Both the position numbers and the translations under genes were made by a program. From the IMG/VR virus record IMGVR_UViG_3300044826_000279, positions 1 through 22,470 of that record: a DNA stretch of 22,470 nt; one strand, written 5' to 3'. The first letter of the stretch is position 1. Each line of letters begins with the position of its first letter. This document shows positions 6,171 to 22,470 of the stretch, one piece after another. The notes under the pieces are model-generated. The model was not told where the DNA came from. It saw nothing but the letters and a program-made list of their open reading frames with translations, and made no database searches. The stretch is from a virus.

Positions 6171-6537
6171 TTGCGATTCTCCCTTTAGCAACAAAAGCTA
6201 GTCCAGCAGTGGCGGAGGCTATGGAGATGCGCTTATCAGCCTCTCCTTGCTCTAAAACTACTATTCCTCCTGGTTCAATTACAAAACTCACCCCTGGTAC
6301 TGCGTTCGCATCGACATTTAAAATGATTCGACCAGTACTGATATTTTGTAGAGTTACGCGATCGCGACTAGGATTGGCGCTACAGAGGTCTTGAGGAGTA
6401 TTAGCCTGAATAATCGCGCCTGAATAGTCAGGATTGCTATAGCTTATTGTGCCGATGGTGGGTGGAGTATTCGTGCCTGATTCGACAGCCTCGGCAATAC
6501 GAAGCAGCAGTTGAATTTCGTTTAATCTAGGGGGCAT
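6157..6537 (-). CDS. Small virion protein, probable fibre/neck attachment domain
   Basis: 126 residues from ATG 6537, preceded by AGGAGG about 10 bases upstream and overlapping the previous stop as TAATG. A longer frame from 6615 lacks these signals. After an N-terminal helix (LNEIQLLLRIAEAVES) the protein is all beta: DRVTLQNISTGRIILNV, then VIEPGGIVVLEQ and ADKRISI. This LQN-then-PGG pattern is common in small phage structural proteins but has no firm assigned function. It lies between the neck genes and the fibre genes. Confidence 0.6.
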   Translation of the reverse strand: MPPRLNEIQLLLRIAEAVESGTNTPPTIGTISYSNPDYSGAIIQANTPQDLCSANPSRDRVTLQNISTGRIILNVDANAVPGVSFVIEPGGIVVLEQGEADKRISIASATAGLAFVAKGRIASAIL

Positions 6538-8070: not shown

Positions 8071-8273
8071 GAGATAAGAAATAAGAAGTAAGAAAGGGGA
8101 AATAAGAAGTAAGAAGTAAGAAATAAGAAATAAGAAAGGGGAAATAAGAAGTAAGAAGTAAGAAATAAGAAATAAGAAAGGGGAAATAAGAAGTAAGAAG
8201 TAAGAAATAAGAAATAAGAAAGGGGAAATAAGAAGTAAGAAGTAAGAAATAAGAAATAAGAAAGGGGAAATAG
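8071..8273 (+). repeat. Higher-order heptad array: four perfect 42-bp units
   Basis: 29 heptads without a gap (203 bp). Four identical 42-bp units occupy 8099-8140, 8141-8182, 8183-8224 and 8225-8266. Each is six heptads: GAAATAA, GAAGTAA twice, GAAATAA twice, then GAAAGGG. A short four-heptad version precedes them (8071-8098) and GAAATAG ends the run. Perfect copies imply recent expansion by slippage or unequal exchange. The minus strand contains no stop codon in any frame across the array, which creates a spurious 83-codon reading frame. Confidence 0.95.
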
Positions 8274-8306
8274 GAGATCTCAACTATGGTCAGGAGCTAC
8301 GCTCTT

Positions 8307-8336: not shown

Positions 8337-9452
8337 CTAAGCAGGCACACAACCCCGAATTACATAGATTGCCTTTTCTTCTTGAGGTACAGGGAATCCA
8401 ACTCCTTGACCCTCTGCATCGATGTGGACAGGTTTTTCCTCACGGGGGAACAGTTTAATCACATCACCTGGTGCTGTTTCTCCCTGACACAATCCGACGG
8501 CATAATAACCCAACGTGTTGTACATCAGCATGTCCTGACCGTCAGGCACAACTAAAGCTTGCTCTCTGGGGGTAGAACCAATCAAGACAAAAGCGTCTTT
8601 AGGGATAAACGGGAAAAATCCCTGTTCGGTGTTATAACCGTTGTTATATTCAGTGATAGGCGGAATGCCTTGCTGAGAAAGAATTTGATTGATCTGGGCG
8701 TTGGTGGTAACTCCCGTCACAGGATAAACAGCGTTATTGATCGTATCTACGGTCATTCCCCCAGTGCGTCTTTGGACGATGGCATTAGAGCGCATCGCCG
8801 AAAGGGGAGCATAACTAGATACTGCTGCCTGAATTTGCCCATAGCCGAGGGATTTAAGAACATCTACTCCCTTGAAAATTTCTTCCAAAGGATCGAAGGT
8901 ATTGTCGCTCCAAAAAGCAGGTGAAATGACGCGGTTACTCGCAGGTGCATCAATAGTGACGGTGTAACTTTGACCGTTGGCTTTATTGACATTAACGACG
9001 GAATTGACAATTGCTTCCCAGCGTTGTTTTTCCTTCTTATCCAAAAGGGCATATTTGATCATGGTGTCGATCATCGAGATCATCTTTGATCGAGCACCAG
9101 TCATGTTATTTTCGTCTAGCATCTCGATGATGGCATCATAAGCGGGTCCTTCGATCGCCCGCTTGGCATCAAAGTGACCCATGGCGACTTCAGTAGATGC
9201 GGATTGGCTGAATTCCCTTTTCATCGCTGGATCGTAGCGTCCCGAATCTTCCGCGATAATCGTGCGAAAGCGTACTTCTTCTTCGACGACGATGTTGTTT
9301 TTGCTTTTCGTTTGCAAGACTTCTGGGAAAAATCTTGCTCCTAAGTAGGTTTTACGCCGTAGTTCCGAGCCGAATTGGACAAAAGGGTCACGGGCGATAC
9401 GGGTAATATCGCCATCCTTTTTCATTAGATTGAGTAAGGTAATTAAATCCAT
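8337..9452 (-). CDS. Major capsid protein, lambda gpE-like family
   Basis: 371 residues from ATG 9452; the frame continues upstream only because repeats there lack stops. It matches the phage major capsid protein E family (HK97 fold): an N-terminal LGARFFPE, an R-rich region (VEEEVRFRTIIAEDSGRYD in part), KREF, then the family's helix EGPAYDAIIEML, a central WSDNTFDPLEEI, and VLIGSTPRE near the C-terminus. It assembles the icosahedral head shell around the scaffold. It follows the decoration-like and scaffold genes, the usual order. The ATG is preceded directly by three TAGTGGG repeats (on the plus strand) rather than a Shine-Dalgarno, strange for a gene needing high expression. Confidence 0.88.
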   Translation of the reverse strand: MDLITLLNLMKKDGDITRIARDPFVQFGSELRRKTYLGARFFPEVLQTKSKNNIVVEEEVRFRTIIAEDSGRYDPAMKREFSQSASTEVAMGHFDAKRAIEGPAYDAIIEMLDENNMTGARSKMISMIDTMIKYALLDKKEKQRWEAIVNSVVNVNKANGQSYTVTIDAPASNRVISPAFWSDNTFDPLEEIFKGVDVLKSLGYGQIQAAVSSYAPLSAMRSNAIVQRRTGGMTVDTINNAVYPVTGVTTNAQINQILSQQGIPPITEYNNGYNTEQGFFPFIPKDAFVLIGSTPREQALVVPDGQDMLMYNTLGYYAVGLCQGETAPGDVIKLFPREEKPVHIDAEGQGVGFPVPQEEKAIYVIRGCVPA

Positions 9453-9455
9453 GAT

Positions 9456-9476
9456 TAGTGGGTAGTGGGTAGTGGG
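9456..9476 (+). repeat. TAGTGGG x3 tandem heptad abutting capsid start
   Basis: Three exact copies of TAGTGGG end three bases upstream of the capsid ATG (minus strand CCCACTA). It is a different heptad from the GAARTAA family, which starts only five bases further on. Confidence 0.9.
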
Positions 9477-9481
9477 TTTAG

Positions 9482-9516
9482 GAAATAAGAGGTAAGAAGC
9501 AAGAAATAAGAAGTAG
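9482..9516 (+). repeat. Heptad array upstream of capsid gene, left arm of inverted pair
   Basis: Five heptads: GAAATAA, GAGGTAA, GAAGCAA, GAAATAA, GAAGTAG. They are inverted relative to the array at 9561-9595, with a 44-base spacer holding two more partial heptads (9535-9547). Confidence 0.85.
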
Positions 9517-9560
9517 CTTCGCGTCAGTCGCATGGAGTAAGAGGCAAGACGATAATTCTT

Positions 9561-9595
9561 TTACCTCTTATTTCTTATTTCCTATTTCTTATTTA
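9561..9595 (-). repeat. Heptad array at decoration-gene 3' end, right arm of inverted pair
   Basis: Five heptads on the minus strand starting with TAAATAA, whose first TAA is the stop codon of the decoration-like gene. The purine strand is the sense strand of that gene, as at the other gene ends. Together with 9482-9516 it could form a stem of about 35 bp with mismatches. Confidence 0.85.
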
Positions 9596-9997
9596 GATGA
9601 CCTCGTATAAGGCGCGAATTTTTTGTTTAGTGGTGGCGCTCATAGTGCTATAGCCTGGGAGGGATCTTTCTAACACCTGACAACCTCGGCGATATAAAGA
9701 GCATTGCCCATCTGAGCCTAAAAATTTGTCATCAAAATCTACATCAAAGAGTAGAAGGTAAATCTGAGTATCGGTGGTGAGGTTAACGGGACCGAAACCG
9801 ATTCCTAGATCTTTTTCGGCAAACGTCCGCCCAACTAGAGTCCCTGCGTAAACAATATTGGTACCATCGGCATTAGGGAGGGCGAATTCAGATTTCTGGA
9901 GAAAACTACCTCCTGCTAGTAGCGCGTGGCGGTCAAGCTCATCTTGTGCCCAGATCGGGGAAGTGTTTTGAGTGGCGGTTTTATTAATTCCTGGCAT
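9593..9997 (-). CDS. Putative head decoration or minor head protein
   Basis: 134 residues, ATG start, 11 bases after the scaffold stop. The N-terminal segment is extended, followed by a beta-rich body: NIVYAGTLVGRTFAEKD, TQIYLLLFDVDF, CSLYRRGCQVLERSLPG, ending in a helix (ATTKQKIRALYEVI). Size and place between scaffold and capsid correspond to decoration proteins such as lambda gpD, which bind the expanded shell; the TLVGRT segment also fits. No catalytic residues are apparent. Its stop merges with a heptad array. Confidence 0.6.
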   Translation of the reverse strand: MPGINKTATQNTSPIWAQDELDRHALLAGGSFLQKSEFALPNADGTNIVYAGTLVGRTFAEKDLGIGFGPVNLTTDTQIYLLLFDVDFDDKFLGSDGQCSLYRRGCQVLERSLPGYSTMSATTKQKIRALYEVI

Positions 9998-10008
9998 GGC
10001 AAGTTAAG

Positions 10009-10650
10009 TTAATTAGCTGAAAGAAATTTTGGCACTTTGTAGTTTTGATCGAAGTAATTGTCGATCGCGCTACTAGTTTTTTCCTCCTCCTCCTCCTCAG
10101 AATCACCAGCAGGAGTTTGTTGGTGAGGTGGAGTTTTGGGCAGATTTTTATTAGCGCCGGCGGCATAAAGAGCAGGGATGAAAGCTGCTTTATTTTGCTT
10201 TACCCACTCTTTTAAAGACTGATTCTTGACTGTGACTTTCCCCGCTTCGATCGTCACCTCTTCCGTGCCCAGAACTGCCTCTAAAACTGTGGCATTAACC
10301 TTTTCGATCTCGGCAACAGAACGAATCAAAGCCTCTCGACTGTTAAGGGCGATCGTTCCCTGCAAGGTGACATTTTCAGCTTTGAGGGTTTCTCGCTCGG
10401 TATTTAAAGCGGCGATCGCCGTATTGGCAGCGTTTAATTTTTCCTCGGTGGAACCCTGATCAATACCCATGGCAGTGGTAAGAGTATCGATCTGGGTAGT
10501 CAGATCCTTGATTCTAGACTCTTGCTCATTACCCAATTGGGCTACATAATCTGTCAAACCCTGGGCTACTGCTTCGGCGTTTTCCATGCTCGATTTTTGA
10601 ATCGCGGCAATGATTTGAGTTAATTTCATGGGCTTTGTAAACGATGACAT
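10009..10650 (-). CDS. Capsid scaffold-like protein
   Basis: 213 residues from ATG 10650 (ATG 10629, MKLTQ, is an alternative). The first two thirds are strongly helical with coiled-coil heptads (LTTQIDTLTTAM, LNTERETLKAENVTLQ), followed by a basic WVKQNKAAFIPAL segment. Near the C-terminus is a run of seven acidic residues in DSEEEEEEK, then KVPKFLSAN. Helical, acidic and unstructured-ended proteins directly upstream of the capsid gene are typical scaffolds, which guide capsid assembly and are later lost. No protease motif is seen, so head maturation may use a host or unseen protease. It is the first gene of the leftward block. Confidence 0.65.
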   Translation of the reverse strand: MSSFTKPMKLTQIIAAIQKSSMENAEAVAQGLTDYVAQLGNEQESRIKDLTTQIDTLTTAMGIDQGSTEEKLNAANTAIAALNTERETLKAENVTLQGTIALNSREALIRSVAEIEKVNATVLEAVLGTEEVTIEAGKVTVKNQSLKEWVKQNKAAFIPALYAAGANKNLPKTPPHQQTPAGDSEEEEEEKTSSAIDNYFDQNYKVPKFLSAN

Positions 10651-10714
10651 CTCTAGATTGCCCAAAATAGCAGCTAAAATCGTGGTCGCCAATTGAGAAA
10701 AAGGAACAGCAAAA
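10651..10714. promoter_or_regulatory. Divergent intergenic region between scaffold and regulator genes
   Basis: Sixty-four bases separate the leftward head block from the rightward portal/tail block. On the minus strand TTGGCG (10687-10692) and TATTTT (10664-10669) are 17 bases apart, a weak sigma-70-like pair. If used, transcription would start close to ATG 10650, which would favour ATG 10629 as the scaffold start. On the plus strand AAGGAA (10701-10706) is a good Shine-Dalgarno for ATG 10715. No clear plus-strand promoter is seen. Confidence 0.4.
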
Positions 10715-10942
10715 ATGGGCAATGTTCTGGGGGTACATGGAGGCAAACAAAATAAACAAAGAATTTTATTGCTGTTGCAAGCAAATCCCCTCAAGGAAAT
10801 GAATGTGGCTGAGATATCCCAGACTCTTGGGCTGAACCAAACTAGCGTTAGAACTGCTCTCCATGAGTTGACTCGTAAACATCAAAATCTCGTGTTTTTG
10901 GCAATTACTAAGAAACAACATTGTTGGTATTGGAGAAATTGA
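10715..10942 (+). CDS. Small winged helix-turn-helix DNA-binding protein
   Basis: 75 residues, ATG with AAGGAA nine bases upstream. It is a compact wHTH: helix 1 KQRILLLLQANP, helix 2 VAEISQTLGL, recognition helix NQTSVRTALHELTRK, then a beta wing LVFLAITKKQHCWYWRN. The Q-SVR-AL-EL pattern is that of MarR/ArsR-like or phage wHTH repressors. It lies at the pivot of two divergent structural blocks, one base before the portal start, so it may control both through the 64-base gap upstream. Alternatively it could be a terminase small-subunit-like DNA-recognition protein, as it directly precedes the portal; the short length argues against a full one. Confidence 0.65.
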   Translation: MGNVLGVHGGKQNKQRILLLLQANPLKEMNVAEISQTLGLNQTSVRTALHELTRKHQNLVFLAITKKQHCWYWRN

Positions 10943-10943
10943 C

Positions 10944-12395
10944 TTGGAAAAAAACACAGTTGCCGAGCGGGCTTGGCAATATTACATCGGCGATCATCTT
11001 CAGTTTTGGAATGGTCCGACCTTGCCCGAAGAACACCCGATGTTCCAGAAAGTAGAAGATGAAATTAAACGGCTGTTTCGCATTTACAATATCTGCGCGG
11101 AGGTGGTAGACATCTATACCGCAGCATTGGTAGGGAAGCCGTTTAGCTGGTCATTAAAGGATGATCAGGGCGAAACAAACGAAGAAGCTAAATCCCTGAT
11201 CGAAAACTGGTTTGAGTGGCAAAGTGAGGTGGGCATTGATGCGGATTTGGGCGATCCAATTTCCAATTGCATCACTCAAATGCTGGTAAGAGATCAAGGT
11301 AATGGTGCAGGAGTAGGTTATCTGCGACTTTATCAACCTGATATTTATAGCAACTTAGAACCTTACCAACGGGTGATCTTCCATGCTCCCGCGCCAGGTA
11401 CTGTAAAAGCTGAACGCAATGTCCATGGCATCCTCTATAAAGCTTCCTATGCTTACGGCAAGGGGGAAGAGGAAGAATATGAGTTGCAAGAGGATGGAAC
11501 TACAAAGATTACCAATCTTAAAACCAACGAAACCAGTATTGCTGATTTTGGCGGCAGACTCCCGATCATTGAAATGAAAGGCAGATCCCTGATTAATGAA
11601 GCGGTGCAGCGAGGACAAGATGCGATTAATAAAACTCTAACTATTAAGGATATCAATGTTGAGAGTGCTGGCTTTCTTGAGCGGATCTTACTTAATGCCA
11701 TGCAACCTGGCGAATGGGTGGAAAACGATGACGGCACGAAATCTTTTAAACCAAATCCCCAAGGACTGAATATGGGTGCAGGATTGGTTACCTTTGTCTC
11801 AGGGATGCCAATCGGCGATCCTGATGCCCCCGAAGGCTATACCAAGCCAGAAGTTCGCTACCGCGATCCTGTTCCTGTGGAAACTTTTCGCGATAGTGTG
11901 GCGATCGATATTGCCACAATCTATTTTCAGACAGGATTAGCTTATCTCCTATCTTCAGGGGATGGCAAAATTTCTGGCAAATCTCGATTAACCCTCAAGG
12001 AAGACTTTTTGGTGCGACTGCGTACCTACGAAAGCAAAATTGAGGCAGCGATCCGCAAGCTTTTGGTGATCGTCATGAAAAATTTAGAAAGTGATTATCC
12101 CTTCTTCAAAGGATATAAGCCCGTGGTGGAGCTTAACTTAGCTGTGACCCCTCTCCCTGAAGAGCGACAGCAAAACCGCGAAGATGTAAAGGCGGGAATT
12201 ATGTCGATTCCCACTGCGATCGCAGCTAATGGGAGAGAGGTGCAAAAAGAGCTAGTGGATATTGAAAAGTACTTGCCGCTGTTGGGAAAACTCTATCAGG
12301 CGGGAAATCGTAATCAGAGTGGTGATACCAGCGCTCAGGAAAATATCGATGACCGTTTGCGAGAAAAAGCCAAAGGGAATACCTCAACTAGTTGA
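10944..12395 (+). CDS. Phage portal protein
   Basis: 483 residues starting at TTG 10944, eight bases after GGAG and one base after the previous TGA. Portal features: an N-terminal region with RIYNICAEVVDIYTAALVGKP, the crown-to-wing path where a receptor helix begins; beta segments of the wing; and late in the protein IYFQTGLAYLLSSGDGK followed by SGKSRLTLKEDF and a long stem/clip helix (RTYESKIEAAIRKLLVIVMK). These fit SPP1-type portals, which form the dodecameric DNA gate at one head vertex. The C-terminus (after about 450) is polar and probably flexible. Its separation and opposite orientation from the capsid gene is unusual, as these normally share one operon. Confidence 0.78.
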   Translation: MEKNTVAERAWQYYIGDHLQFWNGPTLPEEHPMFQKVEDEIKRLFRIYNICAEVVDIYTAALVGKPFSWSLKDDQGETNEEAKSLIENWFEWQSEVGIDADLGDPISNCITQMLVRDQGNGAGVGYLRLYQPDIYSNLEPYQRVIFHAPAPGTVKAERNVHGILYKASYAYGKGEEEEYELQEDGTTKITNLKTNETSIADFGGRLPIIEMKGRSLINEAVQRGQDAINKTLTIKDINVESAGFLERILLNAMQPGEWVENDDGTKSFKPNPQGLNMGAGLVTFVSGMPIGDPDAPEGYTKPEVRYRDPVPVETFRDSVAIDIATIYFQTGLAYLLSSGDGKISGKSRLTLKEDFLVRLRTYESKIEAAIRKLLVIVMKNLESDYPFFKGYKPVVELNLAVTPLPEERQQNREDVKAGIMSIPTAIAANGREVQKELVDIEKYLPLLGKLYQAGNRNQSGDTSAQENIDDRLREKAKGNTSTS

Positions 12396-12420
12396 CTAGC
12401 CAAAAAAAAATGGGAATACT
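12392..12420 (+). promoter_or_regulatory. Candidate promoter for tail tube gene
   Basis: TTGACT at 12392-12397 and AATACT at 12415-12420 are 17 bases apart, a reasonable sigma-70-like pair at the portal gene's end. A strong Shine-Dalgarno AAAGGAG (12447-12453) follows, seven bases before ATG 12461. A separate promoter would suit the high dose of tube protein needed. Confidence 0.4.
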
Positions 12421-12460
12421 AGTCTCAAAAGCTAGACAGAATAATTAAAGGAGAATTTTT

Positions 12461-13411
12461 ATGGTTGGTTTAAAAGAACGCCTCGATATGACGGATATGA
12501 TCGTTTGTAACGAGGAGATTCGGCTGTTGGTGGGTAAAGCAGTTTCTCCGAACGCGAAGTACGTTCCTGAAATTGGGCAGGATGTAGTTTTAACCGCTGC
12601 GATCTTAGTAGGAGCAACTTTTGTTACCGTAGAACCCCTAGAGGAAAATATTAAAGCGGGCACAATCTTAGCTTTCAAGAATCCAGCGGGGACAACGCTA
12701 GGATCGGTGACCGTTTCAATTCAGCCAGAAAGAAAAGATACCAGAATCTATATTTCTCCTGTTGCAACTAGCGCAGTTAATGCCTCGAACGTAGCCAAAA
12801 CTGTTGGTGTAGAACAAACTCTAACAGTAGGAACTGCTGTAGCTGCTGGCGCTCGTTCGATAACTTTGGCGGCTCCCTTAACCAATTGGATTGAAAAAGG
12901 ACGAGTTCTTTCTTTTGAAAACGGCGTGGATGTAGTGGTTAAAAACCGTACTGAAGCTGGAATTTCTACAATTTCGATTGAACCTGCACCGTTCCCCTTG
13001 GCGGTAGGCGACGATGCCATTCTTGAAAATTATCTCGAAGTCCTATCAATTAACCAGGTGGATGATAGTTCTTCTGCCAACACTCTAAACGAACGAAACT
13101 ACCGCTCAGGTTCGGGTACAGGTAAAGCCGTTACCTCTTATTCTGATACTGTGACCATTGGTGGCAACTATATCAAAGGTGACTTTGCTCTCTTTAGACT
13201 GTATAACAACAAACAAGATGCCAAACTGCGGGGCTATATTAACCACTGTCTGATTATTGAGCCTGAAGGTGGACAAGACTTGCGAGGCATGATGTGGCTC
13301 GGTCAACACGGCAATACTCGTCCTAATGACCAAACCAAGAAAATTTCCGCCACTTTAGAAGTTGATGGTATCTTGGGCAATACTTTGGTGCCTCGTCGTA
13401 TTTTTGAGTAG
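12461..13411 (+). CDS. Major tail tube protein
   Basis: 316 residues, ATG with strong Shine-Dalgarno. The C-terminal 120 residues look like a siphovirus tube domain: alternating strands SYSDTVTIGGNYIKGDFALFRLY (in part), a loop, then WLGQHGNTRPNDQTKK and SATLEVDGI. Before it are two related beta modules at about residues 42-100 and 120-175, each with a GA..(V/I)T...L...I..G..L.F pattern and ending in a (T)I.I.P segment. Such decorations are known on tube proteins and cyanophage structural proteins. The tube polymerises around the tape measure. Position just before the G/GT chaperone genes supports the call. Confidence 0.72.
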   Translation: MVGLKERLDMTDMIVCNEEIRLLVGKAVSPNAKYVPEIGQDVVLTAAILVGATFVTVEPLEENIKAGTILAFKNPAGTTLGSVTVSIQPERKDTRIYISPVATSAVNASNVAKTVGVEQTLTVGTAVAAGARSITLAAPLTNWIEKGRVLSFENGVDVVVKNRTEAGISTISIEPAPFPLAVGDDAILENYLEVLSINQVDDSSSANTLNERNYRSGSGTGKAVTSYSDTVTIGGNYIKGDFALFRLYNNKQDAKLRGYINHCLIIEPEGGQDLRGMMWLGQHGNTRPNDQTKKISATLEVDGILGNTLVPRRIFE

Positions 13412-13414
13412 ATC

Positions 13415-13642
13415 TTGAATTACCAATTTTTAACCAACGCGAAAAAATCCCTCTACCTAATTAATTGTCAGGTGGAGGGAAATATTTTGTCTTACGGGAT
13501 TGGGGTCTTTTTGCCCAATTTACCTCCAGAGCAAAAACTAATGTCAACTCCAGACAAGACGGTTAATATAGTTCTCAGTTCGGAACAAATTACCCCCAAA
13601 ACCCAGATCCGATTTAATGGAGAATTCCAGATCAATGACTGA
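13415..13642 (+). CDS. Small protein of unknown function between tube and chaperone
   Basis: 75 residues from TTG 13415, only three bases after the tube stop; the next gene starts inside its end (ATGACTGA overlap). The upstream Shine-Dalgarno is poor, so it probably relies on coupling. It is beta-like (LINCQVEGNILSYGIGVFLP; VNIVLSSEQI; RFNGEFQ). No family is recognised. Its frame is kept open between two coupled genes, which argues that it is real. A tail chaperone partner or tube-associated protein is possible. Confidence 0.5.
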   Translation: MNYQFLTNAKKSLYLINCQVEGNILSYGIGVFLPNLPPEQKLMSTPDKTVNIVLSSEQITPKTQIRFNGEFQIND

Positions 13643-14318
13643 AACGATTACAAAACCGCCCTTTTCTCTTGCTGACTTAACAGAATTAGAAAATCATCAA
13701 ATTCTTGTCTATCCTGATAATCAACATTGGCTGGCAGCGATGAGAGATCGTGTTTCGGCTCATCCAGAGGACACTACCCCCGCAGGGAAATTGATGAACA
13801 GTTTAGTAGAGTTGGGTTCTGATAACTGGGGTTTTAGTCTGCCTAAGAAATGTTGTTTATTTGTCGCAGAAAGACAGGCGATCAAAAGCCAGACTGCCGC
13901 TAGGGACAAGGCTGTAGCATCATATTTTCGCTTGATCCAGAAGATTGCCAAAGCTCTTAAAAAACCTCAGCAGGAGGTTGCTCAACTAGTAGCCCGTTCC
14001 TTTGAAAATTTGGATATCTTAGATGCGTGGCTAGAAGAAATTACCTCCGCCACTAGCCAATTACAAGCAACTGATACAGACGTGGCAACAGTCACCGTCA
14101 TGATTCAGCAGCGACTAAATAAGCATTGGACGGAATTTGATACTTTAGCCTTGCCTGAAGCTCTTTTCAATACCTTCTTGGATTACGTCCAAGGAGAGGA
14201 AACCGCTTGGAAAGAACCCGAGGTGGAAGCAGAAGAGGGGGTATTCGAGGCTGATATCACAGAAGTTTCAGAGGGAAAGCCAACACCCGTACTCAAGGCA
14301 GCAGCAGAAGCGATCTAG
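13635..14318 (+). CDS. Tail assembly chaperone, G-like (short product)
   Basis: 227 residues from ATG 13635, with GGAG 12 bases upstream; ATG 13617 in the same frame is possible but lacks a site. The N-terminal half is mixed, followed by helices (VASYFRLIQKIAKALKK, QEVAQLVARSF) and an acidic, low-complexity tail rich in Glu and Val. Its location between the tube and T-like reading frame is that of lambda gpG, which coats the tape measure during tail assembly. The heptamer GGGAAAG lies 12 codons before the stop, and ribosomes that slip there make the longer GT product. Ribosomes that do not slip stop at TAG 14316. Confidence 0.75.
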   Translation: MTETITKPPFSLADLTELENHQILVYPDNQHWLAAMRDRVSAHPEDTTPAGKLMNSLVELGSDNWGFSLPKKCCLFVAERQAIKSQTAARDKAVASYFRLIQKIAKALKKPQQEVAQLVARSFENLDILDAWLEEITSATSQLQATDTDVATVTVMIQQRLNKHWTEFDTLALPEALFNTFLDYVQGEETAWKEPEVEAEEGVFEADITEVSEGKPTPVLKAAAEAI

Positions 14319-14788
14319 AGTTTGACCAGTATCTCGAAAAACTAGAAACTTACGAACCTCCAGACTGGGAAGAAATTTTCCTCGATTTTCTCCACTGGGG
14401 GTTATGTACTATGGAAAACGCCCTAGAGCAATTTTGGCGGCAGCCAGATCAGCGAATTTTGCGGATTTGGATCAGCATCAAACGCCGTCGCCAAGAGGAC
14501 ATTAATAGTCACAGCCTTACCTGTGCGAATCTAATTGCCACTTTGGTTTCCTTCCTGCGCTCCTTTGGGGAAAATAACCAAGATCAACCAATCAGAGAAG
14601 ACTACCTACCTTTCAGGTTCATTGACTTTAATAGTCCTAAATACCAACTTCAGCGCAAAATTACCCCAGACACATTGGCGATCGCTCGTGAACTTCTGAA
14701 TGAAGGTACAATGCCACCCCGCATTGTGAAGGTGTTGTATGGGGTGGAAGGGATGATGGAGTTGCTGGAAGAAGAAAATAAGAAATAA
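13635..14788 (+). CDS. Tail assembly chaperone, GT-like fusion by -1 frameshift
   Basis: A -1 slip at 14273-14279 joins 215 residues of the G-like frame to 169 residues of the downstream frame, giving about 384 residues. The downstream frame is open from 14255 to TAA 14786. The part before its first ATG (14411) already reads like real protein (DLEFDQYLEKL, YEPPDWEEIF), so independent start at 14411 would lose conserved-looking sequence. The T-like part is helical with a basic KRRRQED stretch and ends RIVKVLYGVEGMMELLEEENKK. In lambda the T domain recruits tube protein to the gpG-coated tape measure; the same is inferred here. The stop TAA is the end of a heptad repeat. The tape measure, which should follow, is instead on the other strand. 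Confidence 0.75.
14273..14279 (+). other. Programmed -1 ribosomal frameshift site GGGAAAG
   Basis: In the zero frame the codons are GAG GGA AAG, so the heptamer reads G GGA AAG, the X XXY YYZ form. It is the same heptamer as in the lambda G-T frameshift. After slipping, tRNAs pair with GGG AAA and reading continues GCC AAC ACC in the frame of the T-like gene. No strong downstream stem is apparent by eye. Confidence 0.85.
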
Positions 14789-14835
14789 GAAGTAAGAAAT
14801 AAGAAGTAGAAGGTAGATTTTGTCTTCTACTTCTT
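14782..14835 (+). repeat. Heptad array and 12-bp stem between GT gene and S23 gene
   Basis: Five heptads (14782-14816: GAAATAA, GAAGTAA, GAAATAA, GAAGTAG, AAGGTAG) follow on from the GT gene and supply its stop. A perfect 12-bp inverted pair, AAGAAGTAGAAG (14801-14812) and CTTCTACTTCTT (14824-14835), encloses an 11-base loop. It could act as a weak transcription terminator but has no following T run. Confidence 0.8.
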
Positions 14836-14837
14836 GA

Positions 14838-14867
14838 TAGAATCGAAATAACTACATAACGATTCTA
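14838..14867 (+). promoter_or_regulatory. Perfect 8-bp inverted repeat just before S23 gene start
   Basis: TAGAATCG (14838-14845) and CGATTCTA (14860-14867) are perfect complements separated by a 14-base AT-rich spacer, ending three bases before the ATG. This may be an operator for a dimeric regulator or a leader hairpin that limits translation. No good Shine-Dalgarno is seen. Confidence 0.5.
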
Positions 14868-14870
14868 AAA

Positions 14871-15236
14871 ATGAATAATAACACTTTTATACAAGATAGA
14901 ACTAGAGCTTTTGGAGTTAGAGTAATCAAAGCTTACTCTGAACTCAATAAGCGCAAATATGACGATGCTGGGAAAATACTATCTAAACAATTCTTAAGGA
15001 GTGGAACAAGTATAGGAGCTAACTTAGCAGAAAGTCGCTTCGCCAGATCTAAACCTGATTATATCTCAAAAATATCCATAGCTTTGGCTGAAGCATCTGA
15101 AACAGAATATTGGATTAAAATGATGATTGAATCAGACATTATTTCAGAACAAAAATTTGATTTGCTTCTCAAAGAATTAAATGAAATAATTAGCATTTTG
15201 GTAACAACGCTTAACAAGTTAAAAAACAAGAATTAA
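14871..15236 (+). CDS. Four-helix-bundle protein, S23/IVP (23S rRNA intervening sequence) family
   Basis: 121 residues, ATG start. The family signature is clear: LSKQFLRSGTSIGANLAES, then SKPDYISKISIALAEASETEYW, with four amphipathic helices throughout (TIGR02436/PF05635). Family members are encoded in intervening sequences of 23S rRNA, stand alone in many bacteria, and include Avd, the accessory protein of diversity-generating retroelements. Their general role is unclear; a nucleic-acid-binding, pentameric bundle is known for Avd. The gene is much richer in A and T than its neighbours and has no HIP1 site, suggesting later arrival. It sits between inverted heptad arrays, inside what is normally an unbroken chaperone-tape measure junction, and looks like an inserted cassette. 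Confidence 0.85.
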   Translation: MNNNTFIQDRTRAFGVRVIKAYSELNKRKYDDAGKILSKQFLRSGTSIGANLAESRFARSKPDYISKISIALAEASETEYWIKMMIESDIISEQKFDLLLKELNEIISILVTTLNKLKNKN

Positions 15237-15281
15237 CTCTTACCTCTTATTTCTTACCTCTTATTTCTTACCTCTTGCTCC
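15233..15281 (-). repeat. Heptad array between S23 gene and tape measure gene
   Basis: Seven heptads. On the minus strand they read GGAGCAA, GAGGTAA, GAAATAA, GAGGTAA, GAAATAA, GAGGTAA, GAGTTAA. The tape measure stop TAA (15268-15270) ends one of them, so the last codons of that gene (RSKR, stop) come from the repeat. The S23 stop TAA (15234-15236) also lies in the first repeat. It is inverted relative to the array at 14782-14816. Confidence 0.9.
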
Positions 15282-18200
15282 TCTCCTGCATCAACTTTTG
15301 CCGTCTGGCAATCTGGCTTTCAGTGGCGCGGAAGCTATCAGCATCTTTAGCAGAGACGTTCACAGAACTACTGAAGTTGTTAATTATTGTTGCTGCGCCC
15401 CCTGAGCCAATCATGCTTTCACTGCCATAGCGGAAGTTCTCAACTTTTGATGATTGGTAGCCTGAGTTTTTCATCTGACTCCACTGCCCGTTATTTCTTA
15501 ACCGCCGCACCAGTTGGGCATCACCAGTTAAATCTGACAAGACCACTTCCCCTTTATGGAGTACGGCGGGGAAGGCATCGGGATGGTTTTCTTTACGGAT
15601 AGCTTCGTTTAGTCCTTTAGCCAAGGCGACATCTTTGGTATCTAGCCCTTGACTGGCATGGGGAATGACCATTGCTTCGGTGTCGCCTCCTTCTCTGAAT
15701 CCAAATATGAGGGGGATGAAATTGGATGCGGCTCCTATAACTGGACTCCAATCAAAACCACCTCCCGTCGGAGCAGCAGCTTTACCTTGCTTTTGACCCA
15801 CAGCACTTGCCGCCGCACCTGCTCCTATCCCTAGCACCTCGCCCCAGTTCAGACCTCCCTTTTGCTTAGTCTTGCCGCTGATATCCACCCCAGAGGAAGG
15901 TTTAGCAATTTGTTGGGTTACTCCAGCTAGCGCCTCGCCCCAGTTCAAACCACCTTTTTGTTGAGTTTTGCCAGTGATATTAACGCCCTTATCTGAATCT
16001 CCAAAGATGATTCGCAGTAGCTCATTTTTGGCAAAAGCCATCAGGATTTGAGCTAGGGAATTGAGGATGGAAGTGGCAAAATTACGCCAAGCATCGCTGG
16101 CTCTGACAGATTTATCTAAAAAGTCATCTAGCAAGCCATTGAGGGCTGGTTGTAAAACCTCGTCAAAGATATTAGCTAACTCGCTGGTTTGGAGATAAAG
16201 CTTATCTAATTTTGCTTCGTTGAGATCATCCAGAGCCTTTTTAGCATCCTTATAAGATTGTGTGAGTTCGCCGTTCTTACCTTTTAGCTGATCCAGTCCC
16301 TTTAGTTTTTGCTCGTATTCCAGGGCGATTTGCTGTTTCCCAAGTTCTCTAGTGGGGCGGTTAAAAGTCAAATCGTGGATAAACGATGGAGCCAGACTCT
16401 TGCGTTCCTCCAAGGCATCTGATTTCATCCCTAACAAGTCCGCCCGCTTCTGGAAATCCAGTTCCAGAGTTTTATCGTTTTGAGCCTGAGCTACCGCAGG
16501 GCTGATTTCAACCTGGAGACTTCTCACAATTTTGTTATTGGCGATGAATTGATCAACATCCTCCGTTAGGGTTTTAGTGTAAAAAGCTAATACATCTTGG
16601 GCTTCCTGATCCCCTGCTTTGGCTTGCAAGTCTAAAAGTCCGCCTTCAGCGATCAGAGCTTCATAAGCCTCAATGCCCTGCATCAGTTTAGACTGTTCCT
16701 CTTGCAAAGAATCGATGCGACTCTGATAATCCGAGCGCACATCTTGCCCTGCAAAATAGATTTCCTCTGGTTGTGATAGATAGCCTTTGGCACCGGCACT
16801 AAACTTTTGCAAATCGTAGTCGCGATTTCTGTTGGCGCGATCTCGATCGCGACGATTTTCTCCTACTTCTTCTTGTTTCTGATCTAAGCCACTGTAGAGG
16901 TTTGCCAAGGCGATCGCCTTTTCTTGTTCTGTGACTTGTTGTTGTTTGGCTCTTTTTTCCTCTTCTAGCTTCAGTAGTTCATCAAAAGTCTTTTCTGCTT
17001 CCGCCTCTTTACCTGTAGGAGCTGCGACACCAGGCAAAGGAGTTGGGGGGGCAGTAGGAGCGGCTAAATTGCCACTGGTAGGTAAGGGGATCGGCGTAGC
17101 GTTAGGTATTTGAGGCATTGGCGGGAGCGCGGGAGTATAGGGCACAGGGGGCGCTGAAGGCAATACCCCAGAAGTAGGCAGATTTTGTGCGGAAGGCGGT
17201 ACAGGAATAGGAGGCTTGACGACAACCGCGTAAGTTTTAGCCAGTCTTGCCTCGTTCCTGCGGCGGTTGGCATGAGTACTAGAATCAGTGGCGGCGATCG
17301 CCGTGGCAATTTTTTCCTTGTCCCCTGTTTTTGCCACTTTGACTAGGGTGCTGGTTAAAGAACCACGGTTATAAGCCACAGAGAGCAGTGCCGCTTGGAC
17401 ATTAGCATCTAGGGCTTGCCAATATTCCTTGCCCATTTGAGAGATAATCACCTTTTCAAAACGGGGTAAATCGTATTTAAGCAGTTGTGTTTCTGCTGCT
17501 TCTTTAGTGATAGTTGAGCCTTCTTTATAACTATTCGACTGATTGCCCTTATATTCCGTGCCGTAACCAACTCGCCAAGCGTTAGTATCCCAATAAGCAT
17601 TGGTGCGGAATCCTTCTTCCTGCCGCAACAGATTGGCTGCCCGTTGGTAACTGTTCCCTGTTACTTCGATTCCAGTGCTGGCTTCGGAGCCGCTGGTATT
17701 TAGTTGAGTTCTTATTTCCTCAGCTTTGGCATTTAAGGTCTGAGCCAATTGATTGAGGGCGGAAATCAAATTATTACCTTGCCCTGCCACCTGAGTACTA
17801 ATACCATCCAGACTGACCCCCAATTCTGCTGATTGAGTCGTAATGTCATACCACTTGTCCAGGTTATCCTCCCAGAGGCGTTTTTGTTGAAGGTTAAAGT
17901 CTTCCAAGTCTCGTTGCAGGGAGCGCATCTGCTCTAAGTTACTGGCTTCCAGTTCCAGCTTCTCCGTGGATAAATCCCTGATGGTGCGGCTATTCTCTAG
18001 AGCTTGAGTTTCTAAATCCAAACGAGACAGATCCTGCTCCAGTTGGATTGTCTGATCAGGCTGAACTGCCTTGAGGTAGTCGGCGTAAAGCTGCGCTACA
18101 TCCCTGCCAATGCCCTGTTTAGCTCCAAACTGTTTAATGATCGACAGATCAATTTGATTGTCGAAAATTTGCTTGTCTAACTGTGCCAAGTCAAGCTGGG

Positions 18201-21200
18201 CTTGGATTATCTGTTTTTCCAACCCTGAGATAAAATCATCATATTTCTCTTGCAGATCCCTAGCCGAACGGGCAATATCCTTTTGCGCCTGTTGCAGACG
18301 CAAGGGATAGTCTTCGATAAATCTTTGTCGTTCAATCTGATTATCCTCCTGGGAACGGGCATAATCCTTTACCTTGCTGGCTAGGTCGCGGTAACTATCA
18401 ATGTTCGACTTAAGCTGATCCGTGTAATCATTCGCCGCTTGAGCCGCATTTTGATTCGCCTCAGCAGCATCACTCGTCTTCTGGGCGTAAAGTCCCAAAG
18501 AACTTAAAAACACAGCGAGGTCATTATCTCCTTCTTCCGAAGCTTGTTCTGATAGACTTGCGAATGTTTCAGGATTCACGTTTAAGAGTTCAGGTAGTTT
18601 CGACTCAAAAATGTAGTCAAAATCATAACCATTTAAACCTTCACTATAATCCTGTGGCTTAACTAGCCCTAGAGCAAAGAGAGCATTCTGCTTGAAAGAA
18701 GAATCCTGGTTGAGGATTTTACCTTTCTGCTGATCTGCTAAAGAATTCGCGTTTTCTGCCGTAGCAAAGGCAGCTTCTTTTTTTCGCAAAGGAGTCCTAG
18801 TCTGTAGTTCTAAGGGGCTAATCTCCCCAGCCAATTTAGCGTTGATATCATCTACGGTGTTTTGACTCAAGGTGCCCTCAATCATCCAAGTTTGATTATC
18901 AAACTGTTTCTGGAGATTCTTGAACTCCCCTTCAATGTTGGTGGTGACACCTTGAAGAATCGCCTCGTAGGTTTCTTTGTTAGCAAGTTGAACGGCAATC
19001 TGCACATTAAGATCTTCCAGCGTTTTGTCGTAAACCCCCTGGGTAATGTTGTCATTGTCGATCTTCTCAGTCAGCACTGTTTTTTGGGTATTAAGTTGTT
19101 CGAGATCCTTGTTAGCTAAGAGGATTTTTTCTGCCACTGGAGAGAGGAGTTCTTCCTGTCTTTTCTTCAAATCGGCTCGTTGATTTTCGATTGCAGATAA
19201 GGCTTCATAATCGCCATTGTTAGTAGCCACTAATCGTTGGGCGTTCAGGTAGGATTGTTCACCCCGATTCTTGCTCAAGTTATCCTTAGTCAGGTCGAAA
19301 TCTTCGGTGCTTATGCCGTCGGCGATGGATTGACTCAGTTTTTGGCTTTCTTTGATGGAAGTTTGGATATCACCAACGGCAGCAATTTGGTCTAGCCCAC
19401 TAAAGTCAAAGGGATTCGGAATTGTTAGTAAATTCTTTTTTAGACGTTCAAAGTAACTAGATGAGGCGAAACTCTCACTATACTTTTTAGGGTCAGTGTC
19501 CTTGTCATTTTCTTCGTTCAACTTCTTGGCAACTTTTGCCGCCGCCGTACTCTCTTCGATGCCCGCATTCAAAGCTCTAAACACAGCATAGATCCCTGCC
19601 ATGATCACCGTACTGGGTCCAAAGGCTGCCCACATTGCTTTGGCTGCGCTAGCAGTCAAAGCGATGGCATTCCTCATTACCCCCAGTCCTCGCACCATCA
19701 GGCTGGGGCCAGAAATTGCAGCAGCTCCTGTTTGTTGGGCCAGCAGCTTCATCAAGAAAACGTTATCGGTGGTCTGTTGTCCCAATAGCTTCATAATCAA
19801 GACATTGGCTTTGGTGGCAGTAAACACCGCCGTCATTGACTTGACCCACTGCCATACTGCTCCTACCACTATCCCCGATAAGATTAGCGCAATCAATTCT
19901 GAGTTATGAGCTACTACAGTCAAAATCGCATTAGCTGCTTGTAGCCCAGGAGTCAGAGCAGGGATGATCAATTCACCGAGGATAGTTTTTAAATAATCCA
20001 CGTTGGCGGTGATACGTTCTAGTTCCGCTCCAAAGCTCCCAGCCGAGATCTCCAAAATAATCTGCGAATCGATTTCATAAAAGTTTGCCATCCGCGTCAG
20101 CAGTTCATCGGCGGGAACCAACCCCGCCTTGAGTTGAGCAGTAAAAGCTTCCATATCCATGCCCATCGCTTGGGCTGCAACAGCAAAACTTCCTGGGAGC
20201 GCTTCCGCGAGCTGTTGTCTAAGCTCTTCACTACCAGCGGTCGATTTTGACAAAAGTTGCTCAATTGCCAAGAATCCTCTGCCTTGTTGTTCGGGGGTAG
20301 ACTGCTTCGCAGCAAAAGCCTGTTGGAAGCCAGGGAAGATCTGATCTACTACCGCTTCCTTATTTGTCCCCTGGGTAGAAGCGACAAGCCCAGTATAGGC
20401 TTCGAGGGATTGCTTAAACGAAGTGCCGTATTCCTGGGAGCTGTCGTAAATCTCCTCAAATACCAGATTGGCATCCTTACCCGCCCCTGCCATGGTTTGT
20501 TTAAAGCGTTGGAACTCTCGCTCGTAAGCCACCAAACTGGTAAATCCTGCCACGATCGCATCGCTCAATTCGTAAAAGCCAAAAATCCCTACAGCCGAGA
20601 TCCCCAGATCCTTCACAAAGTCCACCACTTGTCCAAAGACAGGAGATGCCGCGCTCATTTCATCAATAAACTCGCTAATGCCGCTAAAAATATCCGCCGT
20701 GTTTGGGAGACTGTCGATGGTGGCAGCATAACTAGCGTAGGCATCTTCTAGCCCGCCTAAAGGATCTCCCCCCGACTGCATAGTTCTCGCCCAATCGCTA
20801 CTGGTCGCCACTAGTCCTTCCCAAATCCCTCCTAAGTCCACACTGCCACTGCGGAGGCGGCTCAGGCTCTCTTCTAAACTGGTAAGTCCAGTGTTAGGGA
20901 TTTCAGTGCCAAAAGTGACATTCCGCCCTAACTGAATATCATCCAAGTCCGCCGTCATGGCTTGCAGAGAATCAGCGATCGCCGATTCAGACAAGTCATC
21001 AATCCTAAAAGCCACCTCCAAGGCAGCAGGGTTAGCTAAAGCAGCTTGGAAATTATCCAACCGAGATTCTAAAGCGTCTAGATTTGACAAGAGGTCTGGG
21101 TTAGCCGCAAACATCTGTTCAATCTGGCTGCCTGGGATTGCCGCCTGGTCACGAATGTACTCAAACTGTGTTTTCAGGAACTTAGCAGTCTTCTCCCAGT

Positions 21201-22470
21201 TCGCTCTGGTGCGTTGAGATGGTCCTGGCGACCCTTCAGAGATAAATCTTTGAATGTCATAACCTTTAGTCTTAGCCGCTGCAACAAGAACATCAAACTG
21301 TTTGAGTATTTCGGTAGCTGTTTTTGCCCAATGTCCTTGAGCTTTGTCTGCGGGAATGTCAAACTGTCTCTCTAATTTATCAAGAGGGTTGGAGGAGGCG
21401 AAATTAAGTGTTCTTAATTGAGAATGGTTGTTGGCATCTTCTAGATTTAGAGTTTCATAATTTCTCCTTTGCCAAACAAGGGGGATGCGATGTTCTAAGG
21501 CAGCATCTTGAACAAAGTCTTTAGGATTATTGTTGTTAGGATCGTAAATTTGCTCGATGTTATGAGGTTCGATCTTTCCCCAACGTTGAAATTCTAAATA
21601 AGCTTCTCCTTTGTTTAGCATCTCTTCAAACATTGCCAGCAGTTTTGAAGGCTCGGAATAATAGTTCTGTCTGCTTTCTAAACTTGAATCTCCGACAGTT
21701 AATGTGGATTTTTCTAGAATTGAAGAATGTAATTTAATTAATAGTGGACTTATTCCTCCATAACCATCAATATCTCCAGAAAACATAGGTTTGTTCTGGT
21801 AAGTAGGCAGGATTGCACCGTAGACTGGATTGACATCAGGGCTGGCATAATAAGGTCTTAGTTGATCCTCAATTCCTGCATCCTTCCTAGCAGTGGTACT
21901 ACCTCTTATTCCATCTATGTCCCTGTATCCAGTTTTATAGCCTTCCTTGAGTATGCTAGACAAATGTTGAGTAGGAATAGCAATATAAGGTTCTAAAGAA
22001 AAACCTTCTGGATTATTTTTAAACTCCTCAAAGTTTTCTAATCTATTTTTTCTTCGACCTTCTAAAGGTTTATATTCTTTGGAGCTTGGATAATAAACTT
22101 TTTTCTCGTACAGCTTCTCGGCTGCTCTCATTTCTCGCAGAGATTCAGCAAATTTAACATCATAAGCTGACTCAATTTGTGAGCCTGATTGTTTAGCTGC
22201 TTGGGCGATCTCTTCCAAGTTATCCTTAACATCCTTCTCGGTGTTATCCCAATGTTCTCTAATTCTCTGTGTAGTACCAGGACTCCCTTCGGAGATAAAC
22301 CTTTGGATGTCATAACCTTTAGTCTTAGCTTCGGCTGCAAGGATTTGGAAGTTTTTAAGGATATCGGCCGTGGTATTTCCCCAATGCCTTTCGGCATTTA
22401 CCGCCCCTTGGGTAAATTTCTGCTCTAGGTCCTGGATGTTGCCAAATTTCTGATATGCTTGGAGCGCAGA
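15268..22470 (-). CDS. Giant tape measure protein with lysozyme and toxin-like domains (5' end outside window)
   Basis: 2400 codons are visible and the frame is still open at the right edge, so the start lies beyond it. From the N-terminal side: a repeated module (22171-22428), a DUF3626-like insert (about 21470-21990), a second copy of the module (21118-21378), a tape measure N-terminal domain (about 20065-20535; SEELRQQLAEALPGSFAVAA matches TIGR02675), two hydrophobic segments near 19880 and 19600, long coiled coils, a GH24-like lysozyme (about 17220-17650), a Pro-rich linker (17040-17220), more coiled coil, a lambda-type C-terminal region (16005-16115) and GFREGGDTE with AVLHKGEVVLSD. It sets tail length and is ejected on infection; the size predicts a very long tail. 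It faces the chaperone genes instead of following them. Confidence 0.9.
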   Translation of the reverse strand, partial: SALQAYQKFGNIQDLEQKFTQGAVNAERHWGNTTADILKNFQILAAEAKTKGYDIQRFISEGSPGTTQRIREHWDNTEKDVKDNLEEIAQAAKQSGSQIESAYDVKFAESLREMRAAEKLYEKKVYYPSSKEYKPLEGRRKNRLENFEEFKNNPEGFSLEPYIAIPTQHLSSILKEGYKTGYRDIDGIRGSTTARKDAGIEDQLRPYYASPDVNPVYGAILPTYQNKPMFSGDIDGYGGISPLLIKLHSSILEKSTLTVGDSSLESRQNYYSEPSKLLAMFEEMLNKGEAYLEFQRWGKIEPHNIEQIYDPNNNNPKDFVQDAALEHRIPLVWQRRNYETLNLEDANNHSQLRTLNFASSNPLDKLERQFDIPADKAQGHWAKTATEILKQFDVLVAAAKTKGYDIQRFISEGSPGPSQRTRANWEKTAKFLKTQFEYIRDQAAIPGSQIEQMFAANPDLLSNLDALESRLDNFQAALANPAALEVAFRIDDLSESAIADSLQAMTADLDDIQLGRNVTFGTEIPNTGLTSLEESLSRLRSGSVDLGGIWEGLVATSSDWARTMQSGGDPLGGLEDAYASYAATIDSLPNTADIFSGISEFIDEMSAASPVFGQVVDFVKDLGISAVGIFGFYELSDAIVAGFTSLVAYEREFQRFKQTMAGAGKDANLVFEEIYDSSQEYGTSFKQSLEAYTGLVASTQGTNKEAVVDQIFPGFQQAFAAKQSTPEQQGRGFLAIEQLLSKSTAGSEELRQQLAEALPGSFAVAAQAMGMDMEAFTAQLKAGLVPADELLTRMANFYEIDSQIILEISAGSFGAELERITANVDYLKTILGELIIPALTPGLQAANAILTVVAHNSELIALILSGIVVGAVWQWVKSMTAVFTATKANVLIMKLLGQQTTDNVFLMKLLAQQTGAAAISGPSLMVRGLGVMRNAIALTASAAKAMWAAFGPSTVIMAGIYAVFRALNAGIEESTAAAKVAKKLNEENDKDTDPKKYSESFASSSYFERLKKNLLTIPNPFDFSGLDQIAAVGDIQTSIKESQKLSQSIADGISTEDFDLTKDNLSKNRGEQSYLNAQRLVATNNGDYEALSAIENQRADLKKRQEELLSPVAEKILLANKDLEQLNTQKTVLTEKIDNDNITQGVYDKTLEDLNVQIAVQLANKETYEAILQGVTTNIEGEFKNLQKQFDNQTWMIEGTLSQNTVDDINAKLAGEISPLELQTRTPLRKKEAAFATAENANSLADQQKGKILNQDSSFKQNALFALGLVKPQDYSEGLNGYDFDYIFESKLPELLNVNPETFASLSEQASEEGDNDLAVFLSSLGLYAQKTSDAAEANQNAAQAANDYTDQLKSNIDSYRDLASKVKDYARSQEDNQIERQRFIEDYPLRLQQAQKDIARSARDLQEKYDDFISGLEKQIIQAQLDLAQLDKQIFDNQIDLSIIKQFGAKQGIGRDVAQLYADYLKAVQPDQTIQLEQDLSRLDLETQALENSRTIRDLSTEKLELEASNLEQMRSLQRDLEDFNLQQKRLWEDNLDKWYDITTQSAELGVSLDGISTQVAGQGNNLISALNQLAQTLNAKAEEIRTQLNTSGSEASTGIEVTGNSYQRAANLLRQEEGFRTNAYWDTNAWRVGYGTEYKGNQSNSYKEGSTITKEAAETQLLKYDLPRFEKVIISQMGKEYWQALDANVQAALLSVAYNRGSLTSTLVKVAKTGDKEKIATAIAATDSSTHANRRRNEARLAKTYAVVVKPPIPVPPSAQNLPTSGVLPSAPPVPYTPALPPMPQIPNATPIPLPTSGNLAAPTAPPTPLPGVAAPTGKEAEAEKTFDELLKLEEEKRAKQQQVTEQEKAIALANLYSGLDQKQEEVGENRRDRDRANRNRDYDLQKFSAGAKGYLSQPEEIYFAGQDVRSDYQSRIDSLQEEQSKLMQGIEAYEALIAEGGLLDLQAKAGDQEAQDVLAFYTKTLTEDVDQFIANNKIVRSLQVEISPAVAQAQNDKTLELDFQKRADLLGMKSDALEERKSLAPSFIHDLTFNRPTRELGKQQIALEYEQKLKGLDQLKGKNGELTQSYKDAKKALDDLNEAKLDKLYLQTSELANIFDEVLQPALNGLLDDFLDKSVRASDAWRNFATSILNSLAQILMAFAKNELLRIIFGDSDKGVNITGKTQQKGGLNWGEALAGVTQQIAKPSSGVDISGKTKQKGGLNWGEVLGIGAGAAASAVGQKQGKAAAPTGGGFDWSPVIGAASNFIPLIFGFREGGDTEAMVIPHASQGLDTKDVALAKGLNEAIRKENHPDAFPAVLHKGEVVLSDLTGDAQLVRRLRNNGQWSQMKNSGYQSSKVENFRYGSESMIGSGGAATIINNFSSSVNVSAKDADSFRATESQIARRQKLMQERSKR
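15837..15985 (-). repeat. Intragenic direct repeat near tape measure C-terminus
   Basis: Two copies of about 54 bp, 96 bp apart, encode GKT(Q/K)QKGGLNWGE(A/V)L preceded by a V(N/D)I(T/S) motif. The 32-residue period and Gly-rich character suggest a flexible linker that grew by duplication. Confidence 0.75.
17220..17650 (-). other. GH24-like lysozyme domain inside the tape measure protein
   Basis: The segment reads LLRQEEGFRTNAYWD followed by RVGYGT. The Glu at 17614-17616 and Asp at 17587-17589 are nine residues apart with the same E-G-(F/L)-R...Y-x-D frame as T4 lysozyme Glu11 and Asp20. The position of T4 Thr26 holds Arg (17572-17574). Downstream, AALLSVAYNRGS is typical of the helical lobe of this fold. 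The domain probably cuts peptidoglycan during DNA entry. Confidence 0.75.
21470..21990 (-). other. DUF3626/ADP-ribosyltransferase-like domain inserted in the tape measure protein
   Basis: About 170 residues carry, in order, IPTQHLSSILKEG, PVYG (around 21817-21828), an STLTVGDS block (21685-21708) and YLEFQRWG (21577-21600) followed by a D/E-I-I-like HNIEQI. This series resembles the RP.YG, TT..GDS, Y.E.Q..G pattern I associate with DUF3626 and related domains fused to phage head proteins and polymorphic toxins. The match is from memory and enzyme activity is unproven. It lies between two copies of another module. Confidence 0.5.

Follow-up and report, generated by a model that had tools for sequence, protein, structure and literature searches.

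A probable programmed −1 frameshift at varied slip sites in a G/GT-type tail chaperone family of cyanobacterial phages

Does the heptamer GGGAAAG near the end of a putative tail gene direct a −1 frameshift that fuses this gene to the next one, as happens in the G/GT system of phage lambda? We addressed this question for the window, by which we mean the whole IMG/VR record IMGVR_UViG_3300044826_000279 (22,470 bases, classed as linear). The heptamer lies inside a zero-frame, G-like open reading frame (13617-14318), where positions 14271-14279 read GAG GGA AAG, so that its phase is G_GGA_AAG, the phase of lambda. Twelve codons separate it from the stop of G (TAG, 14316-14318). The −1 frame (T) is open from 14255 up to a TAA at 14786-14788, and its earliest ATG, GTG or TTG is an ATG at 14411, 46 codons past the heptamer; the junction predicted for the GT fusion is ...SEGK/ANTR.... 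The initial annotation had proposed such a fusion in a cyanobacterial phage on the grounds of the right phase, closeness to the G-like stop and about 50 codons of shifted frame before a first ATG, with EGKANTR at the junction, and our reading of the window agrees with it on each of these points, the codon count within a few. Taken alone, the window is nevertheless weak evidence, since its six copies of GGGAAAG are near the mean of 4.16 in shuffled sequences (not significant alone) and about one in five overlaps of this kind holds some in-phase X_XXY_YYZ by chance (codon shuffle, mean 4.65 of 21 loci). It is the comparison with relatives that places the frameshift site far beyond chance.

Table 1. 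Slip site, reading frames and neighbouring tail genes in the window
Feature	Positions	Strand	Remarks
Major tail (tube) protein, probable	12461..13411	+	Weak tail-tube matches; homologues just upstream of G in relatives
Small ORF between tail protein gene and G	13415..13642	+	Overlaps G start
G, putative short tail assembly chaperone	13635..14318	+	227 aa; sits between tail protein and T
Slip site G_GGA_AAG	14273..14279	+	In-phase counterpart in 30/35 loci, G_GGG_GAG in the other 5
T frame (−1)	14255..14788	+	Read from 14279 in GT; homologous T in 34 loci; no start before 14411
GT fusion, predicted	13635..14279 joined to 14279..14788	+	About 384 aa
Tape measure protein, expected partner of G and GT	15268..22218	−	TIGR02675 above cut-off; tblastn to annotated tape measure proteins

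The features concerned are collected in Table 1. For G we prefer the ATG at 13635, which is preceded by GGAG, the ATG at 13617 being a possible start as well. The matches of the upstream tail protein are with phrog_820 (E 0.012) and NF047353 (E 0.0069). Counterparts of the small ORF (∼77–96 aa) were always seen between the tail protein gene and G in L190, L196, L197, L198 and L200, where they too overlap the beginning of G. At the other end of the window the ORF 91-2055 carries the baseplate-hub domains PF09931 and PF09356 and is a GTA-like hub. Residues 1527-1639 of the tape measure protein are endolysin-like and resemble the gene transfer agent endolysin BgtA (NF058676, E 4.2e-11), and near the C-terminal end of its gene there is a direct repeat of 61 nt, 80% identical (15831-15891 and 15927-15987).

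Relatives were not easily found. Pattern scans of viral contigs for G, T, tail protein, capsid, tape measure and hub, and of genome contigs for G, returned none, and neither did tblastn of the window G against phages. Candidates from a hub profile were rejected as they were generic GTA-like hubs only, at loci without the other tail genes of the window, and a first phylum-wide search with G gave marginal matches only. Because the pattern scans had failed, we turned to whole genomes. A concatenated capsid-portal-tail protein-G-T query against 391 genomes from the order to which a Pleurocapsa genome belongs revealed relatives in 11, a profile of seven T sequences recovered T in 20 of the same 391 genomes, and a larger T profile brought further loci from a second genome group. 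Tblastn with the T of one relative then reached the isolated cyanophages P-SS2, S-CBS2, S-CRES1-3, Cr-LKS4 and CrV-01T. In total we compared 35 loci, the window and 34 divergent relatives, of which 28 are loci in cyanobacterial genomes and six are isolated cyanophages (P-SS2, S-CBS2, S-CRES1, S-CRES3, Cr-LKS4, CrV-01T); their T proteins are 9–30% identical to that of the window. The window and 20 loci form a discovery set, and eight loci, absent from the T profile that found them, were held out. It should be noted that L228/L230, L200/L225, L245/L246 and Cr-LKS4/CrV-01T are near-copies, so the counts below are not all independent. Two kinds of mid-protein inserts of ∼60–100 aa were seen by eye in translated G proteins, one in L198, L227, L258 and L266 (Cr-LKS4) and the other in L245, L246 and L257. 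An HNH endonuclease gene directly follows T on the opposite strand in L263, L264 and L265 (S-CBS2, S-CRES1 and S-CRES3).

Every one of the 35 loci has T in the −1 frame, overlapping the end of G. The overlap holds a canonical in-phase X_XXY_YYZ in 30 of them (19 GGGAAAN, 9 AAAAAAN, one CCCAAAA and one CCCTTTG), and the remaining five all have G_GGG_GAG. Within the discovery set, where the overlap is 49–196 nt long in 21 of 21 loci, a canonical site is present in 18, against a mean of 4.65 and a maximum of 12 in 2,000 codon shuffles; the three exceptions (L196, L200 and L225) are all G_GGG_GAG. The held-out loci gave the same picture, with canonical in-phase heptamers in 8 of 8 (null mean 0.83, maximum 4, 2,000 shuffles) and no heptamer in either of the other phases, and even very short overlaps keep an in-phase one (22 nt in L256 and L257, 13 nt in L259). 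Distinct isolates have it in four of five cases, against a null mean of 0.38: the site is GGGAAAG in P-SS2 and S-CRES3, AAAAAAG in S-CBS2 and S-CRES1, and GGGGGAG in Cr-LKS4 and CrV-01T. The excess of heptamers is limited to the slip phase within the overlap, since discovery overlaps contain 5, 6 and 22 (slip phase) heptamers at 802 positions per phase, while the rest of the same G genes contains 31, 25 and 19 at ∼3,880 positions per phase. Counted over 34 distinct loci (CrV-01T was left out, being nearly identical to Cr-LKS4 here), the overlaps contain GGGAAAN in slip phase 19 times, against none at 6,403 positions elsewhere in G, and GGGGGAG four times, again against none elsewhere in G. We looked across the loci for a downstream stimulatory structure and found no consistent one (mean z –0.36). 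In the related L200 and L225 a GGAGG stands ∼8–12 nt upstream of G_GGG_GAG and may be a Shine-Dalgarno-like stimulator.

The heptamer could still be incidental if T were translated by itself, through re-initiation or coupled initiation at a start of its own. The public records of the isolates do give T as its own ORF, and L200 and L225 have an ATG at the stop of G. However, the most conserved motif of T, DWxEIY...RF...NF, is found after the slip site and before the first possible start codon. A conserved column of this protein is W in 29 of 35 loci, and ahead of it the T frame lacks any ATG, GTG or TTG in 32 of 35; in L196 there is no such codon in the T frame whatsoever. With so few loci offering a start before the conserved W, the conserved domain of T would be made only by fusion to G. 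The starts annotated in the records of P-SS2, S-CBS2, S-CRES1 and CrV-01T are downstream of the motif, so that the T of these records is probably truncated; they remove a conserved N-terminal part, which, like the restriction of the heptamer excess to the slip phase, speaks against independent initiation. We consider a separate T very improbable. The case that the initial annotation had named as decisive against the GT fusion, homologues whose two frames are separate, with starts of their own and without a slip site, was sought in the 34 relatives and not found, and the fusion it proposed gains support from their overlaps, heptamers and lack of start codons.

A fusion might also arise by slippage of the RNA polymerase. 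This is conceivable for the nine relatives with runs of six or more A at the site, but the window and 18 others have GGGAAAN, where no run is long enough, and the sites stay in the codon phase expected when two tRNAs slip in tandem. Transcriptional slippage thus appears to us highly unlikely, and a programmed −1 ribosomal frameshift in a tail assembly chaperone gene, yielding G and GT, is with high confidence the preferred explanation. As far as comparison of sequences can establish, there is an in-phase slip site in a −1 overlap, it persists across very divergent relatives, and T coding is conserved upstream of any start; that ribosomes slip in the host, the rate at which they do so, and the chaperone function are what we infer. 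Most ribosomes would read G through to the stop at 14318, and a minority would move back one base on G_GGA_AAG at 14273 and continue in the −1 frame to give a GT of ∼384 aa. By analogy with lambda, G would coat the tape measure protein, the T part of the rarer GT would bring the major tail protein to it, and both G and GT would leave the tail afterwards. In lambda itself, according to passages of a review (PMC5009743), both gpG and gpGT, the latter thirty-fold rarer, bind the tape measure protein, GT links that protein to the tail tube protein, and neither gpG nor gpGT is present in the virion. The table of virion-detected proteins of P-SS2 includes ORFs 061-063 and 066-067, with 064 (G) and 065 (T) absent (PMC2784084); this is negative evidence, consistent with what is expected of chaperones. 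It is also a reasonable inference, drawn already in the initial annotation, that the ratio of G to GT matters.

How close is this system to that of lambda? The heptamer and its phase are identical, the −1 overlap is 64 nt in both, and the G/GT of the window is likewise situated between a tail tube gene and a tape measure gene. In contrast, T has no detectable homology to its lambda counterpart, G of the window is longer (227 versus 140 aa), and the tape measure gene of the window is inverted. Neither G nor T of the window has a convincing match in Pfam, PHROGs or NCBIfam. None of 23 G members matched a chaperone family, and neither did that of the window in NCBIfam. T gave at best E 0.04 with Pfam PF06223 (Phage_tail_T), in 3 of 20 members, which is not significant, and hhalign with lambda T relatives returned a probability of 0.7%; a match with phrog_34388, of unknown function, was obtained for 8 of 20 members. 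T is thus, judged by its sequence, outside the lambda gpT family. Single-sequence structure predictions (mean pLDDT 41.7 for G and 46.9 for T) were too poor for a structure search. As G belongs to no recognisable chaperone family and T lacks homology to lambda T, assignment of function relies on gene position and on the frameshift. What we find is a −1 overlap between tail protein and tape measure genes, a slip-phase heptamer near the end of G, and a T apparently available only as a fusion, so that in all the sequence features open to testing the system behaves as lambda G/GT does.

Descent from lambda finds no support as the source of the shared heptamer. Placed on a maximum-likelihood tree of T, the four classes of slip site call for 12 changes, and well supported branches alone force at least six changes for GGGAAAN and at least three for GGGGGAG; the window groups with L197 (GGGAAAC) and L196 (GGGGGAG). 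Some 12 changes of class imply that it is slippage that is conserved, and not the lambda heptamer. An alignment of homologues had been suggested as a check on conservation of the heptamer: it bears out that slippage is kept at this place, but the heptamer used for it is not constant. Conservation of the lambda slip site, as the initial annotation had it, is not supported in view of this turnover and of the hhalign result. Slippage that is kept while the proteins diverge agrees with the G/GT frameshifts described for tailed dsDNA phages (Xu, Hendrix and Duda 2004, in the account of PMC5009743), and a mixture of heptamers is known from the haloarchaeal viruses HCTV-1, -2 and -5 (GGGAAAC, AAAAAAC and GGGAAAG, in passages of the same review), which the cyanobacterial family resembles in this respect. 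For G_GGG_GAG the nearest parallel is GGGGGAA, reported by PRFect at about a thousand actinophage sites and explained by G:U pairing in the A site (PMC10885494). Both are five Gs followed by A, with re-pairing in the P site and G:U in the A site, and GGGGGAG fits the same logic by analogy; the cyanobacterial site differs in ending in G and in turning up on no fewer than three separate branches of the tree of T. We lean, by a modest margin over the contrary, towards the view that this is a cyanobacterial G/GT family with no detectable kinship to that of lambda, in which slippage is strongly selected and the heptamer is freely exchanged (GGGAAAN, AAAAAAN, CCCAAAA, CCCTTTG); its sites would include the non-canonical G_GGG_GAG, recurring in no fewer than three lineages and working by perfect re-pairing in the P site and G:U in the A site.

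It is more difficult to decide on the state of the module in the window. In relatives the tail protein gene is followed by the small ORF, G, T and the tape measure gene, the last of these, wherever it can be seen, being on the strand of GT; in the window it is on the opposite one. Positions 8337-22218 comprise a capsid block (−), a portal-tail protein-GT block (+) and the tape measure gene (−), and the relative L190/L191 (G071) has its portal, capsid, tail protein, G, T and tape measure genes on a single strand. In the window T and the tape measure gene are separated by an accessory gene (14871-15236) of PF05635, a four-helix-bundle protein (23S rRNA intervening sequence protein), with 31% GC against 44–46% around it and inverted repeats on both flanks. 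It has its best relatives in genomes of Pleurocapsa, Xenococcaceae and Hyellaceae, in keeping with a cyanobacterial host. Heptanucleotide repeats (TAAGAAR or its complement) are found at gene junctions (2035-2096, 8074-8290, 9558-9594, 14768-14829 and 15233-15284) and include a 42-nt unit repeated 4.7 times; both convergent strand switches (2055/2078 and 15236/15268) bear them in inverted orientation. The repeats could have mediated inversions, or misled the assembly. The one at 14768-14829 runs into the 3′ end of T, so the last residues EEENKK and the stop are repeat-encoded.

The frameshift may therefore be real and yet the module in this genome a relic, with tail genes rearranged and the phage or prophage defective. 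The inverted tape measure gene, the low-GC accessory gene and repeats that separate it from GT, and the failure to recognise a terminase in the window would all suit a relic. On the other hand G, T, tail protein, portal, capsid and the 2,316-aa ORF of the tape measure protein are all open, and a linear record may be a fragment, so that missing genes mean little. We regard a relic as unlikely, though well within consideration; it would be compatible with ribosomal frameshifting as the best explanation for the family. The tail was earlier judged to be probably functional, which we do not uphold: the genes are intact, but the inversion sets the window apart from its relatives.

P-SS2 ORFs 064/065, S-CBS2 gp015/gp016, S-CRES1 gp72/gp73 and CrV-01T gp032/gp033 are homologous G and T with in-phase slip sites, recorded as separate ORFs with internal T starts and no frameshift annotated. 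The searched parts of the review (PMC5009743) do not name this cyanobacterial family, and we found no report of the present frameshift in cyanophages in the openly licensed papers searched. For specialists the result is confirmatory more than surprising, a known trick in a newly labelled protein family. With it a classic recoding system gains a family that current libraries do not recognise and that counts at least 35 loci of cyanobacterial phages and prophages. It also corrects the annotation of isolated cyanophages, in which the conserved N-terminal part of T is currently lost. Finally, the slip sites of this one homologous gene, G_GGG_GAG among them, form a natural set of interchangeable variants suited to testing slip-site rules in cyanobacteria.
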